Shown: positions 28,079 to 34,428 of the stretch, one piece after another
Layout: each line of letters starts with the position of its first letter
Numbering within the stretch: position 1 is the stretch's first letter
Virus record (IMG/VR): IMGVR_UViG_3300032249_000683
Location: 1-47,828 of that record
Length of the DNA: 47,828 nt
From: a virus
Direction: 5' to 3' (one strand)
Notes under the pieces: model-generated
The model's database searches: none
Told to the model about the DNA's origin: nothing
The model's input: only the letters and a program-made list of their open reading frames with translations
Made by a program: the position numbers and the translations under genes

Positions 28079-29425
28079 TTACTTGCCCCCAGTATTCGTC
28101 CCGTAATTTCCAAATGTATCCCTAATTAAAGTCATTGAAGTATATGAACCTTCCGTATCAAAATGATGACACAATTCCTTTATCATATATAGACCACTTT
28201 GCTCATCATCATATGTTGCCCCGTCTTCTCTAGAAATCTTAGGAAACTTACATGTAATAATATCACCTGCTCTTAAGTTGGTATTTGATGGTACAGTCAT
28301 ACTCATAGTTTGAGTAAAGAGTATATTATATCTCATAATTGCCTGTGACTGATACTTAAATGGGTCAGAGTTTCCTTCTCTAGAAACATCTTTCTCCATT
28401 GTACCAATATCCAATACTTGAGTTAGAATTCTTGTGGGAGAATCTCCCAGACTAACATTCGAACTACTTGAAATTTTTGGTAGTTGAAGTTCTTGTCCCA
28501 GGTTATTCACACCACTTACATAATCATTTAACTTAAATGTTCCCTTTTCTGGTGGAGTAAATTCAAATGTCAATGGATTGTAGAACATTCTATAACTAGA
28601 ATAGGTTCCCAATCTAAGTTTTTCAATTAGGTTTTGATTTCTATTTGTGGTATATTGGAGAATATTAAAGTCATTATCTTTTTCATATCCAGTTTGGTTT
28701 ACATCACTATAGATATAAGTTGCTTTTGATGGTTGTGAAATTAGATTATCAATTGATCTGAAACTGAATCCATCTTGTGTTTGGAAAAATACATACCCTG
28801 CCGTAGCATCTTTCTTCGATGATTCGGGAACTCCTTTAGATGCTAACCATACTAAAACAGTAAATGGTTTTCTTAAATTTCCAATAAATCCATACTTATT
28901 CTGTGTCTTATCAATTTCATCAATCTTATCAGTCTTTAAGTATTCCTTGATAATACTTTCTACAGAGTCACTGATTGATTGACTGGTTGGAAACTTCTTT
29001 GGGACTCTTACAGTCTCATTTGTAATTGCTTCTCTTGAGACCAGGTTTAGTTCAAAGAATTCTCTTTGAGATTCTGAGATAACATTACTGATACTTGAAA
29101 CATAAAGATAATCCTTTTCATCGGTTGCAAAGTCCAATCCAGGATTTGTGGCAGAATTACCGGCAATCTTTAAGGAAACTCTTTCACCACCTCTTAAGGG
29201 AAGACCATTATAGATTGATTGGAATGATCCTGTTGCATTTCCTTCATTATCTTGTGCCTGAATAGAATCACCAGTGTTTCCTACCTGAATTTTTGCCGTG
29301 ATTGATGGGGAGAAGATATCCTCATAATAATCAATAGAAACCGTACCAGTTCTAATATCAACGGTTCTCTTTTGGTCGTTGGATTCAAGTATAAGTTCTT
29401 CGTAAATTGACTTTTTTACTGACAT
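28079..29425 (-). CDS. Baseplate hub protein, VrlC/gp27-like
   Basis: 448 residues. Begins VKKSIYEELILESND and continues TGTVSIDYYEDIFSPSITA, a beta-barrel pattern of hub proteins that T4-like cyanophage annotations call VrlC. It sits exactly where T4 gp27 would be, between the tail lysin and the gp5-like OB gene, overlapping the upstream gene by one base. Inference: forms the trimeric hub ring that carries the spike and docks the tail tube. Confidence 0.75.
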   Translation of the reverse strand: MSVKKSIYEELILESNDQKRTVDIRTGTVSIDYYEDIFSPSITAKIQVGNTGDSIQAQDNEGNATGSFQSIYNGLPLRGGERVSLKIAGNSATNPGLDFATDEKDYLYVSSISNVISESQREFFELNLVSREAITNETVRVPKKFPTSQSISDSVESIIKEYLKTDKIDEIDKTQNKYGFIGNLRKPFTVLVWLASKGVPESSKKDATAGYVFFQTQDGFSFRSIDNLISQPSKATYIYSDVNQTGYEKDNDFNILQYTTNRNQNLIEKLRLGTYSSYRMFYNPLTFEFTPPEKGTFKLNDYVSGVNNLGQELQLPKISSSSNVSLGDSPTRILTQVLDIGTMEKDVSREGNSDPFKYQSQAIMRYNILFTQTMSMTVPSNTNLRAGDIITCKFPKISREDGATYDDEQSGLYMIKELCHHFDTEGSYTSMTLIRDTFGNYGTNTGGK

Positions 29426-31281
29426 TATGTGTATGCTAAATCTAGTAAGAGTTTCTGTGTGATGAAACTATTTAACGGATTAATTATAATTGGTATCATT
29501 CCACCTCCACCACCTCCGGCAGAGACTTGTTGCTGTGCTGGTGGATCTTCTTCTATCACAACAATAGTGGGACCATTTCTTTGTTGGGATAGTTGTTGAG
29601 GTGTTGTGATAGTTGGTGATTTTATTTGTGCTAGTGCTAGTGGAGAAATTGTAGTTGGTTGCCCCGATATTCCGGTCAATTGCCTTCCAATTGAAAGAAG
29701 TCCCAAATAAGGTCTGGGATCGATTGCTTTTCCAAAAGGACCACCAGGTCTAACTTCAAAGTGTAAATGAACATCTGGAGAGTTTCCAGTATTTCCGATT
29801 TCACCAATAGTTTGACCATTATATGATTGCCCATTCTTTACCATCATTTTTGCAAGGTGGGCAAAACGATAGCAAGTTCCGTCCGATGTAACAATATCTA
29901 CTGTTAAACCATATCCACCACTATTTCCAGCGAAGACTACCTTTCCACTATTTCTAAAAGCAACATAATACCCCCTTGCACCAGAAGTTCCAATATCAAT
30001 CCCTTCGTGTGTTCTTCCACTACGTGGTGCTCCAAATACACCCCTTCCCCCACTAAGTCCAACGGTAGCAGTTCCTCCCCTAGGTCCAGCAACATTTATA
30101 GAATCTTTTACAGTAGTTGTGACTGCTGGAGTCATTTTTGCTGGAGTGGATGCTTGTGCAGATCCGGGTTTGAATGATTTGATAAAAGCATTATGCAATA
30201 TTCTTCTATCCTTATAAACTCTTTTGGATGGATTCTCCCAGTTTCTCATAAAATCATCTGCAGCTTCTTCTGGAGAATTGAATTGTTTTTTTAAGTATAA
30301 TGGAGTATTTGGATCACTCTTTATTGCAAAATCAATTTGCCCTTTCCAATTAGTTTTGTAATCAGGAACTGCTTTCAAAAATGCTGCTTTTCTGGATGGG
30401 TAAGTATATTGAAATAATCCAATACCTTGTTTACTATCACCTTTTTCTTGAGAACCTATCTCAAATCCACTTTCTCCTTTAATATTTGCTAAAATACCTA
30501 ACGCATGAGTATCATCTATACCCAATTGCCTTAGATAAGAATATACTGCTTGTGGACTAACTCTTCCACCTTTGGTTTCTTCTTCACCACCAGAAGGTTG
30601 CCCCTGAAAACTCTGATTTGAATATTGAGTTCCAGTAGGTGCAGCATTCTCACCACTGGCAACTCCTTCACTCAGAGATGTGGTGAGTAATCTAAATCCC
30701 TCATCAAACTGACTCTGCATATCATCAAAATTAGTATTCAAATCTCTCATCGCATTCTCAACTCTTTTATTACTATCAGTAAAATCAAAGCTTAGAATAT
30801 TTTTACCAACTGCACCCAGAACATTTCCAAACCCTCTAAAAATATTAATGGTACGATTAAAAAATCCAGTCACAATAGTATAAAGTCTTTGCATTCTTGC
30901 AATCAATTCCTGTGCCATCGTAATAATTGATGGTAGATTATACATCAACCACCCAATTAATAAAGTTCCTAAGAAGTCCATAATTCTTCCTAAGAATCCT
31001 TTAGTACTTGAAGCAATTGCCTTTGCCTGCCTCTTAAATACTCCACCAATACTTGATGCTTCTATCAGATCTTCTCTATTCTTTCTTCTTTCCGATTCCT
31101 GTCTTCTTTGAGAAAGAATATAATTTCTTGCTATCGATTCCCTCTTTACTTTTGTCTTTTTTAATAGAATATTATTAAGTTTTACAGTCTTCGTTTTTAT
31201 TCCACCCAATCCAGATCTCAAAGATCTCATTGATGTATTGATATTGGTAAAACTTCTTACTGGAGTTATAACAGGTGCCAT
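29425..31281 (-). CDS. Tail hub lysin with lysozyme-like and M23 peptidase domains
   Basis: 618 residues. Residues 50-95 are basic (RRQESERRKNRED), 101-120 a hydrophobic membrane-like segment (MDFLGTLLIGWLMYNLPS). Residues about 245-370 form a phage tail lysozyme domain (ALGILANIKGESGFEIGS, with Glu of GESGF as candidate acid, and KQGIGLFQYTYPSR). Residues about 405-530 are an M23 endopeptidase with H-x3-D (THEGIDIG) and H-x-H (VHLHFEV) zinc ligands. Together they would cut glycan and peptide of peptidoglycan during DNA entry. Two enzymes in one hub protein replace the T4 gp5 lysozyme. Confidence 0.85.
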   Translation of the reverse strand: MAPVITPVRSFTNINTSMRSLRSGLGGIKTKTVKLNNILLKKTKVKRESIARNYILSQRRQESERRKNREDLIEASSIGGVFKRQAKAIASSTKGFLGRIMDFLGTLLIGWLMYNLPSIITMAQELIARMQRLYTIVTGFFNRTINIFRGFGNVLGAVGKNILSFDFTDSNKRVENAMRDLNTNFDDMQSQFDEGFRLLTTSLSEGVASGENAAPTGTQYSNQSFQGQPSGGEEETKGGRVSPQAVYSYLRQLGIDDTHALGILANIKGESGFEIGSQEKGDSKQGIGLFQYTYPSRKAAFLKAVPDYKTNWKGQIDFAIKSDPNTPLYLKKQFNSPEEAADDFMRNWENPSKRVYKDRRILHNAFIKSFKPGSAQASTPAKMTPAVTTTVKDSINVAGPRGGTATVGLSGGRGVFGAPRSGRTHEGIDIGTSGARGYYVAFRNSGKVVFAGNSGGYGLTVDIVTSDGTCYRFAHLAKMMVKNGQSYNGQTIGEIGNTGNSPDVHLHFEVRPGGPFGKAIDPRPYLGLLSIGRQLTGISGQPTTISPLALAQIKSPTITTPQQLSQQRNGPTIVVIEEDPPAQQQVSAGGGGGGMIPIIINPLNSFITQKLLLDLAYT

Positions 31282-31282
31282 C

Positions 31283-32713
31283 TTATGTTACCACATTATA
31301 ATTGACTTGTGAATAAAGAACGTAGAAGTTATCTGGGTTTGATGCAGATATTGCCGGAACCTCATTTACAGAACCACCAGTAGGAGCAGCACCAGATTGC
31401 TGTTGAGCAGAAGAACCTATTCTCTTATACACTACATTTGGTGTTGGTTCTGGTGCTGGTCCAAGATTAAATGCGGTAGATGGTATTCTTGTAGTTTGTG
31501 CTTGTGGTGACACCTCTGCCGGAATATCAACATTCCCAAACTCTGCTGGTTTGGAAGCATCTAATTGTTTTGATTTGTCCGTTTTTGGTGCTTGTGTTTT
31601 TGGTTGTTGCGTATTCTCATTCTTTCCAAGAAAAGTTCCCTCAAAAGCACCAAATTCTCTGGCAACATCTGCACCAACCGCAAGTAATCCAACTCCCGGC
31701 AATGCAGAAGCAGCAGATAAAGATCCACCAACCATATCCCCCTGAGAGAATCTATATGCAGATATTCCAATATTAATTGGTGCAAAAAGTTTTGACCCAA
31801 GACTTGTAGCCCCCTTAAACAAGTTTCCGGCATTTTTTAATAATCCACCACCACCTCTTGCTGCTGCCGCTGCCGATACTGTTGCTGCTGCAGGTGCCGC
31901 TTTTGGACCTGCTCCAGTAAGTACTCTTACTCCAGCCTGTGCCCCAGAAACTATTGCACTTCCAGCAGATTTTAATAGATTTCCAAGTGCTCCAAAAAAT
32001 CTACCAATAGTATTTTTAAATAACCATCCACCAATTTTGAGAGATAATCTGGTAATAGTTCCTGCAATTGCAAAAAATCCACCACTCAATAAGAATAATG
32101 TTCCGGCAGCAATTCCAAGACCATTGAGAACATTATCTCGGATTTCTTCTAATTTTTTACCATTGCCATCAGACAATGCTTTAAGAGTTTCAATTCCTTT
32201 ATTAGCAAACCATCCAATGAATAATGTCGTAAAGAATTGTTTTACTTTTTCTAAGATAGATTGTGTTCTTTGTGCAATTGCCTGAGCAGGAGCAAGTAAT
32301 GCATTTTGGATTTTTCTTTCTATTAAACTTTCTCTACCTATTCTTAATCCTTGTTCGGTCCCTCTTCTTTGCTCTTCTTGTTCCTGCCTTATACGATTCT
32401 GATCCAGAACACTATCATAAGCAATCAAATCTGTAATTCTACTTAAAGCAGTACGAAAGTCATTAACTTCTGCTCTTAAAGAATTAATCTGCTCCTGTAG
32501 TGAAGATATGTTCTGAGTTTGATTCTGTATTGCCGTTGTAACTAATGCTCCAGAATCTGATTGCCCATTAATAGCAACCAGTGCTCCACCACGACCAAAA
32601 ACATTAGATGATATGCGAGTTCTTGCAAATATTGCTTTTCTTTTTTCCGCAGACAAATAGGACCCTGATATAGGATCTACCCCACTTTGTGCTATTTGTG
32701 CGAGATCAGCCAT
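31283..32713 (-). CDS. Hub or tape-measure-like protein with membrane segments
   Basis: 476 residues. Residues about 55-135 have coiled-coil and basic segments (QNQTQNISSLQEQINSLRAE, ERKIQNALLAPAQAIAQR), then hydrophobic stretches (FFTTLFIGWFANKG, LGIAAGTLFLLSGGFFAIAG), then Ala/Gly-rich sequence. The FIGWF region parallels LLIGWLMYN in the next gene, so both may share an N-terminal module. The order gp26, small ORF, this, lysin, hub matches T4 26-51-27-28-29, so it may correspond to gp28 or gp29; context only. Confidence 0.6.
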   Translation of the reverse strand: MADLAQIAQSGVDPISGSYLSAEKRKAIFARTRISSNVFGRGGALVAINGQSDSGALVTTAIQNQTQNISSLQEQINSLRAEVNDFRTALSRITDLIAYDSVLDQNRIRQEQEEQRRGTEQGLRIGRESLIERKIQNALLAPAQAIAQRTQSILEKVKQFFTTLFIGWFANKGIETLKALSDGNGKKLEEIRDNVLNGLGIAAGTLFLLSGGFFAIAGTITRLSLKIGGWLFKNTIGRFFGALGNLLKSAGSAIVSGAQAGVRVLTGAGPKAAPAAATVSAAAAARGGGGLLKNAGNLFKGATSLGSKLFAPINIGISAYRFSQGDMVGGSLSAASALPGVGLLAVGADVAREFGAFEGTFLGKNENTQQPKTQAPKTDKSKQLDASKPAEFGNVDIPAEVSPQAQTTRIPSTAFNLGPAPEPTPNVVYKRIGSSAQQQSGAAPTGGSVNEVPAISASNPDNFYVLYSQVNYNVVT

Positions 32714-32879
32714 TTGCTTGGTTCTTTAGATTTTCTTCTTCGATATAATTTTGTAGCAAGGTTACATAGATCTCCCTTTCCCAAGGAATCATATCTTCAA
32801 GTTCTGTCAAAGAGTATTTATGATGCTGCATCATGGCAAAGTTTGTCTTGTAGTATGACGCAAGGTCAGTATGCGCCAT
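32706..32879 (-). CDS. 57-codon tail chaperone extension, probably made by frameshift
   Basis: Frame MAHTDLASYYKTNFAMMQHH to EENLKNQANG, with YSLTELEDMIPWEREIYV, the pattern of the second half of tail assembly chaperones (helical, E-x-M/L-P-WE). It has no convincing ribosome binding site, lies in the -1 frame of gp26, and no stop separates it from a T TTT TTC slippery site at the end of gp26, so it is probably made as a gp26 fusion. T4 gp51 is the positional counterpart. It overlaps the next gene by eight bases. Confidence 0.75.
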   Translation of the reverse strand: MAHTDLASYYKTNFAMMQHHKYSLTELEDMIPWEREIYVTLLQNYIEEENLKNQANG

Positions 32880-32881
32880 AC

Positions 32882-33601
32882 CTACCCGAAAAAAGCAGAT
32901 AATCCCTCCAGAACTACTTCACTTTCAACTTTAGTATTGGGATTTTTAATCTTAATTGTATGAGAAAGTTTAGGCATTGTTTCAAAGAAATTTTCAACTT
33001 CTTTGAATTGCTTGGAACTTAACTGTTCAACAAATTCCAATAGTTCTTTCTTTGTGGAACCACTACCAGTCCAAGACTCTTCTTCTGAATAAATTTGGTC
33101 AATACATGAAATAATCAAATCAAATGTATCATCAACACTTACCGACTCACCAGAATCAAAGTTATTCTTAATGAACTCAGCCATCGATGGGTATCTCATT
33201 CTCAATGTTAAAGAATCATCCAACTTAATATCACGTGAATGTTCTGGGTCCACTTCAACATTAATTTCATCCAAGTTGATGCTTGTTGGAACTTGAGTCT
33301 CACCATCATCGGGACAGGTAATTAAAACATCTACAGTTTCACCGACTGACTTACCTCTAATATTGAGGAACAAATACTCAATATCAAATGTAGCAAGATC
33401 TTCTACTTTAATACCTTTGCTTAAAATACAGTTTGAAATAACATTCTTAACTGCATTCGCAATCTGTTTTGAATCTTCACTTTCTAGTGCAATAATTAGA
33501 ATCTTTTCTTCTTTAACCAGAAAGGGTCTATATCTAATTTTCTTTTTTAATGATGGAATTTCCAACTCATAAATTGGAGTTGCAATCTTTGGTAAAGGCA
33601 T
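32882..33601 (-). CDS. 26: gp26-like baseplate hub / tail assembly chaperone
   Basis: 239 residues. Starts PLPKIATPIYELEIPSLKK and contains IRYRPFLVKEEKILIIALES, the T4 baseplate (PF12322-type) signature. T4 gp26 is 208 residues and takes part in hub assembly. The last codons are GCT TTT TTC GGG TAG, containing a -1 slippery heptamer in frame. By analogy with lambda G/GT the short and extended forms would act as chaperones on the tape measure. Preceded by a CTAAATAA late box. Confidence 0.85.
   Translation of the reverse strand: MPLPKIATPIYELEIPSLKKKIRYRPFLVKEEKILIIALESEDSKQIANAVKNVISNCILSKGIKVEDLATFDIEYLFLNIRGKSVGETVDVLITCPDDGETQVPTSINLDEINVEVDPEHSRDIKLDDSLTLRMRYPSMAEFIKNNFDSGESVSVDDTFDLIISCIDQIYSEEESWTGSGSTKKELLEFVEQLSSKQFKEVENFFETMPKLSHTIKIKNPNTKVESEVVLEGLSAFFG
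32888..32894 (-). other. Candidate -1 ribosomal frameshift site T TTT TTC
   Basis: Minus strand 32894 to 32888 reads T-TTT-TTC with TTT and TTC as zero-frame codons of gp26. Slippage by -1 gives TTT TTT CGG GTA GGT ATG GCG, which continues straight into the 57-codon frame. Six bases later GTATG-GCG-CATAC can form a five-base-pair hairpin, a plausible stimulator. Confidence 0.7.
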
Positions 33602-33626: not shown

Positions 33627-33634
33627 TTATTTAG
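33627..33634 (-). promoter_or_regulatory. Late promoter box CTAAATAA
   Basis: Minus-strand CTAAATAA 26 bases before the gp26 start; overlaps the stop of gp54. Confidence 0.55.
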
Positions 33635-34428
33635 ACGACTCTACGAGAACGATCATATGCAACATCCCCAATACCTCTTGGTCTTGGATCATCCAATCTA
33701 CCTGTTCCAAGATTTGAGTTTCTCCATAGTAATTCATCCCTACCAGTTGCAAGTCTAGTTAATTGATTGGCAGTATTAACAACATTAACAGCACTAGCAA
33801 ATTTATTACCGTCAATACTTTTTGCTACATCAAAACTTAATACCTTGCCACAAACATATCTCTCATAGTTAAATGCGGCACTAATTCTCAATACATCAGA
33901 ACCATTATAACTTACTGGTGTAGAATTTAAGGAAAGTGGAAAAAGTCCAAAGAAATTATATTCAATCTCCTTATTATAATCTCTATCAAATTTAATAATC
34001 TTGGTTGTATTACACTTATATGTTTCTGGGTATTGCATTCTAAAATAATACCCTTCTCTATAAGGATCTGCATTAGATCCACCAGAAATAAACTCCATCC
34101 AGTGTTCTATAAATTTTAATTGCATATAATCTCTATCAACATAAAACTCTAAACCAATTTCAGTAAAGATTCTGCGATGAGCAACTCTCTCATTGACTCC
34201 AGTAAAATTATTATTAATGTCTACGGTTGCAAATGAGGTTCCTGGTAATGATGCAGAATGACAAAGTAATCCAGCATCTTCTGCAATAAATCTTGGATCA
34301 ATACCTCTAGTATAAAGATGTGCCAAAAGTTGACCTGGCAGACCACCAAAGATAACTTGGAAGTGTGAAGTCTGAGCAAGATTGGTGAATAGTGGTTTAA
34401 AGTCCGATATTCTACGAGGTCTGACCAC
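33631..34428 (-). CDS. 54: Baseplate tail tube initiator
   Basis: 265 residues; T4 gp54 is 320. The first 40 residues (KPLFTNLAQTSHFQVIFGGL) and the C-terminal half (YNFFGLFPLSLNSTPVSYNG, LRISAAFNYERYVCG) match the tail-tube-like fold of gp54/gp48/gp19 relatives. It seeds polymerisation of the tail tube on the baseplate. The gene is divergent from the gp4-gp48-gp53 operon across a 38-base gap carrying two opposed late boxes. Confidence 0.85.
   Translation of the reverse strand: MVRPRRISDFKPLFTNLAQTSHFQVIFGGLPGQLLAHLYTRGIDPRFIAEDAGLLCHSASLPGTSFATVDINNNFTGVNERVAHRRIFTEIGLEFYVDRDYMQLKFIEHWMEFISGGSNADPYREGYYFRMQYPETYKCNTTKIIKFDRDYNKEIEYNFFGLFPLSLNSTPVSYNGSDVLRISAAFNYERYVCGKVLSFDVAKSIDGNKFASAVNVVNTANQLTRLATGRDELLWRNSNLGTGRLDDPRPRGIGDVAYDRSRRVV

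Follow-up and report, generated by a model that had tools for sequence, protein, structure and literature searches.

A predicted −1 frameshift joining gp26 to a gp51 module in a probable T4-like cyanophage

The gp26/gp51 locus

The window, by which we mean the whole 47.8 kb viral record that was analysed, has its best DNA matches among T4-like cyanophages, for example S-SRM01 and P-SSM2, and its source is a T4-like phage, probably of marine cyanobacteria. The locus under study is encoded on the minus strand and comprises gp26 followed by a 57-codon frame corresponding to gp51 (Table 1). It is flanked by a tail tube gene on one side and by tape-measure-like genes on the other, the usual position of a tail assembly chaperone (TAC). 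The two adjacent tape-measure-like ORFs have about 100 residues in common (25% identity, E 1e-7). The 57-codon ORF matches phrog_634, 'baseplate hub assembly catalyst', as well as the C-terminus of phrog_150, and this second match to so small an ORF is a first sign that the two parts are fused elsewhere.

Table 1. Features of the gp26/gp51 locus and its neighbours, in window coordinates.
Feature	Position	Strand	Basis
Second tape-measure-like ORF, tail lysozyme and M23 peptidase domains	29425..31281	-	PF18013 2.7e-19; PF01551 2e-18; tape-measure phrogs
Coiled-coil/tape-measure-like ORF, directly downstream	31283..32713	-	phrog_3405 5.1e-7; related to the second tape-measure-like ORF
57-codon frame (gp51)	32879..32706	-	−1 frame relative to gp26; start 2 nt past gp26 stop
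Predicted −1 extension RVGMAHTD...NG, 60 aa (TAC-C)	32706..32888	-	phrog_634 1.1e-27; phrog_150 C-terminus 1.1e-5; conserved in alignment
Predicted TAC-NC, 298 aa, about 33 kDa			gp26 residues 1–238 plus 60-aa −1 extension
Conserved hairpin, 3′ arm GCGTCATAC	32853..32861	-	covariation, fold
Conserved hairpin, 5′ arm GTATGGCGC	32873..32881	-	covariation, fold; holds gp51 ATG
ATG of annotated-style gp51 ORF	32877..32879	-	within hairpin 5′ arm; non-start codons there in many relatives
Zero-frame stop TAG, one sense codon past heptamer	32882..32884	-	sequence; spacing equal in 101/107 non-redundant loci
Slippery heptamer T TTT TTC, zero frame (read 32894..32888)	32888..32894	-	sequence; conserved in relatives
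gp26, putative TAC-N, short form, 239 aa	32882..33601	-	PF12322 T4_baseplate 5.4e-74; phrog_150 5.6e-82; hhalign to T4 gp26 9.7e-18
Tail tube-like protein, upstream	33631..34428	-	PF23849 1.6e-17; phrog_45

The 3′ end of gp26 reads GCT TTT TTC GGG TAG, in which T TTT TTC forms a canonical X XXY YYZ heptamer in the zero frame, as an earlier note on this DNA had pointed out. From the heptamer (CGG GTA GGT ATG GCG ...) to 32706 the −1 frame stays open, with no stop between the heptamer and the ATG of the 57-codon frame, and on this point too the minus-strand sequence bears the note out. The predicted junction between gp26 and the extension in the −1 product is AFFRVGMAHTDLASYYK (AFFRVGMAH). It had also been argued that the 57-codon frame has no usable ribosome binding site; this is a weak point, as gp26 itself, judged by eye, also seems to be without a strong Shine-Dalgarno sequence.

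Conservation of the slippery site and the −1 frame

The relatives comprised 209 loci, reduced to 115 non-redundant loci at 90% identity. The 107 non-redundant loci outside the Ackermannviridae-like and T4 groups represent Kyanoviridae, the Straboviridae genera Schizotequatrovirus, Ceceduovirus and Nanhuvirus, as well as Menderavirus, Emdodecavirus and Pootjesviridae; one locus (L179), in which an early stop in gp26 makes the site test invalid, was set aside. In all 80 of the close relatives from IMG/VR (gp26 70–94% identical) TTTTTTC is found 9 nt ahead of the gp26 stop, with the gp51 module following in −1; a few of the contigs end within the module. Across the non-redundant set, T TTT TTY stands 0–2 codons ahead of the gp26 stop with gp51 in −1 in 107 of 107 loci, and neither the heptamer nor the frame relationship, the loss of which in relatives would, according to the earlier note, have refuted the frameshift, has been lost in either set. 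The codon preceding the Phe-Phe pair varies (AGT, TCT, GCT, GAT, AAT) and always ends in T. Other Phe-Phe pairs in the same loci, which served as a control, read T TTT TTY in 6 of 236 cases (2.5%). The 107 loci share ancestry and so do not count as independent cases, yet they span deep phage groups, and silent sites elsewhere change freely.

Just past the heptamer the −1 frame encodes Arg in 98 of 101 loci, whereas the zero-frame residue drifts (A, G, V, E, D, S, I, R), which argues for selection on the −1 reading upstream of the ATG. Five loci have a −1 stop immediately ahead of the heptamer, and since their −1 frame begins exactly there, a slip would be possible at no other place in them. 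Among the 103 complete loci, 41 contain no ATG, GTG or TTG in the first eight codons past the heptamer, and in most of these the first start codon is codon 18–33, inside the conserved domain. In these relatives the whole gp51 module would therefore be readable only through the shift, and a free polypeptide with an intact N-terminus is excluded.

The downstream hairpin

The hairpin GTATG-GCG-CATAC described in the earlier note is present as letters but is not conserved, with 69.6% pairing in 69 relatives against 68.8% for shuffled columns, and this 5-bp element was rejected as a stimulator. The conserved stem uses the same GTATGGCGC but a different partner, GCGTCATAC. This 9-bp stem starts 6 nt past the heptamer, so that in the window's clade an RNA structure is found within the 5–9 nt downstream that is canonical for −1 sites. 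In 69 distinct sequences 91.5% of cells are paired, compared with at most 47% in slid controls, and the covariation score is 0.173 against 0.070 ± 0.008 for shuffled columns (0/500), with five pairs changed on both sides. The extended 11-bp fold of the window has an energy of −16.0 kcal/mol (z −4.2). P-SSM2 (L096) shares both this hairpin and the heptamer with the window.

The pair formed by columns 21 and 35 is UA in 33 sequences, GC in 26, AU in five, GU in one and another combination in four. Read in −1, column 21 falls on the third position of an Ala codon, where changes are silent, and column 35 on the second position of a codon (Ala/Glu/Val), so that a silent position here tracks one at which the amino acid changes. 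Approximately 10–11 changes on the gp26 tree are needed to account for the switching between UA and GC, at least four of them forced by well supported branches.

The conserved 9–11 bp hairpin is absent from the close relatives L003–L006 and from the other clades, including the Syn33-type clade, for which RNAalifold gave no common hairpin worth naming (−0.39 kcal/mol); the hairpin is thus not essential to the mechanism in general. A search of Rfam returned no relevant family. In one relative (L191, bases 1357–1421, which follow its heptamer) an unrelated perfect stem, GTTTTCCAG/CTGGAAAAC, is found where the window's clade has the hairpin, and another (L185) has an unrelated perfect stem of its own, TAGGCCTCT/AGAGGCCTA. 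Such losses and replacements suggest rapid turnover of the stimulator next to an unchanging heptamer. For the window's clade we propose, at even confidence, a two-part signal made up of the fixed heptamer and a quickly replaced, covarying hairpin, which would both stimulate the slip and hide the ATG of the C-module, thereby blocking its separate production.

A predicted chaperone pair and its relation to known systems

T4 gp26 aligns end to end with gp26 of the window (9.7e-18) and contains no C-module. T4 gp51 consists of a gp26 domain (PF12322, residues 1–201) followed by the C-module (residues 208–244, 8.5e-5). The earlier note had called T4 gp51 the positional counterpart of the 57-codon frame, which is true but says too little, the frame being homologous to the C-terminal module of that protein. 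In contrast to T4, with its two full genes, the gp51 of the window has no TAC-N domain of its own and consists of the 57-codon C-module only. This domain composition, with TAC-N alone in T4 gp26 and TAC-N plus the same C-module in T4 gp51, points to a tail assembly chaperone pair of TAC-N and TAC-NC, for which the window phage would use one gene and a frameshift where T4 has two genes. In all 107 non-redundant loci the N-terminal domain is common to the short form and the predicted long form, with the latter adding a small C-terminal domain in −1. A viral structure model, BFVD A0A8S0HX62 (182 aa), matches both gp26 (51%, 119 columns) and the C-module (58%, 53 columns), as if they were fused in one frame. 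The best PDB matches include the HK97 chaperone 2ob9, with a weak score (probability 0.72, E 1.6, 57 columns), and a link in fold to the gp26/gp51 family is suggestive only. A sequence search of gp26 against solved structures gave no relative, and Foldseek with the C-module among viral models returned small helical proteins, none below E 0.001.

Judged from sequence, gp26 and the 57-codon frame very probably constitute one tail assembly chaperone gene in which a −1 frameshift gives TAC-NC; the conserved site, the frame and the start-less relatives strongly support the programmed shift that the earlier note had proposed to join gp26 to a chaperone extension. We infer that the slip occurs, that it does so with limited efficiency, and that the products act as chaperones. 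Most ribosomes would end at the TAG and produce TAC-N. A minority would slip back by one base at T TTT TTC, where the P-site Phe (TTT) and A-site Phe (TTC) tRNAs could re-pair with TTT and TTT, aided in this clade by the 9–11 bp hairpin about 6 nt downstream, and would read on to 32706 to give TAC-NC. TAC-N and TAC-NC would then be expected to act together during assembly of the tail tube, holding the tape measure protein that is encoded immediately downstream.

That the heptamer is a Phe-Phe codon pair which merely looks slippery in a T-rich genome is hardly credible. Phe-Phe is itself conserved at the C-terminus of the family, but the control pairs discussed above take the slippery form in 2.5% of cases as against 100% here, which already refutes chance. 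A different account makes gp51 a separate gene, translated without any frameshift by re-initiation at the ATG 2 nt past the gp26 stop (translational coupling). Most records are annotated in this way, many public ones giving gp26 and gp51 as two genes, and the ATG does lie near the stop in the window and in most of its clade. This account has no start codon near the junction to work with in the 41 start-less relatives, however, where annotated starts (e.g. in Syn33 and HTVC008M) cut into the conserved N-terminus of the module, and it leaves unexplained the invariant T TTT TTY, the Arg kept in −1 upstream of the ATG and the position of that ATG inside a conserved stem. We consider it very unlikely.

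A combination of the two, in which the window's clade makes the frameshifted TAC-NC and also some free TAC-C from the ATG, is improbable to a lesser degree. Of 61 non-redundant clade members, 57 retain the ATG at the junction, 2 nt beyond the stop, so that coupled re-initiation may give some free gp51 there; other relatives have Leu at this position. Met/Leu exchanges are conservative, however, and the GTATG is also needed for the hairpin, in the stem of which the ATG is buried; moreover, L003–L006 have lost the ATG and have a normal gp51 module.

The frameshift reading has precedents in other tailed phages. In lambda, gpG and gpGT are a short and a long tail chaperone arising from a −1 slip near the 3′ end of the gene, just upstream of the tape measure gene. 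The locus in the window is arranged like that of lambda; the heptamers differ, being G GGA AAG in lambda and T TTT TTC in the window. The contractile-tail phage P2 makes E and E+E′ by a −1 slip on a six-T run, T TTT TTG; the run is like that of the window, and the protein family differs by name. The author of the earlier note did not know of such a shift having been described for T4-type gp26. A TAC frameshift system in T4-like phages has reportedly been described by Vladimirov, Gautam and Davidson (Virology 2022, 566:9–15, doi 10.1016/j.virol.2021.11.003). Frameshifting is said there to be conserved in several T4-like groups, T4 itself reportedly encoding TAC-N (26) and TAC-NC (51) as two genes. 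The genes are those of the window, TAC-N and TAC-NC of the gp26/gp51 family, and our T4 comparison agrees with that account. The site in the window is real and mostly expected, being an instance of this described system. The covarying hairpin, together with the start-less relatives, may be the main addition made here.

According to PMC12846349, TAC-N genes of T4-like phages are known to carry poly-T slippery sequences. The paper also describes, for Pakpunavirus Adele and Vandenendeviridae, a −1 slip on a poly-T motif where TAC-N ends, the second part having been wrongly annotated as a gene of its own. The motif given for that different phage family is GTTTTT, compared with T TTT TTC in the window.

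Many cyanophage records list gp51 as a gene of its own under the name 'baseplate hub assembly catalyst', frequently with an incorrect internal start, or leave it unannotated. Because there is no start codon near the junction in the start-less relatives, public records begin gp51 approximately 50 nt too late, at an internal Met that cuts off the conserved N-terminus (Syn33, NC_015285; HTVC008M, NC_020484; also Melnitz), and several show no gp51 feature at all. If gp51 is read as the C-terminus of a tail assembly chaperone that ribosomes reach by frameshifting, the annotation of an abundant group of marine viruses would be corrected throughout, and T4 genes 26 and 51 would fall into place as the two-gene form of this system. 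The locus would in addition offer a compact, testable frameshift cassette with a hairpin supported by covariation.

In the Ackermannviridae-like phages (Salmonella phage Maynard, L084, and L192–L209) gp26 ends without the canonical heptamer, in ATT TTC AT(T/C) TAA, and is followed in the −1 frame by a homologous C-module (phrog_9633, weakly phrog_634). The gp26 of Vibrio phage D504 (L091) likewise ends without the canonical heptamer, in CTT TTC AAG TAA, and here again the C-module is in −1.
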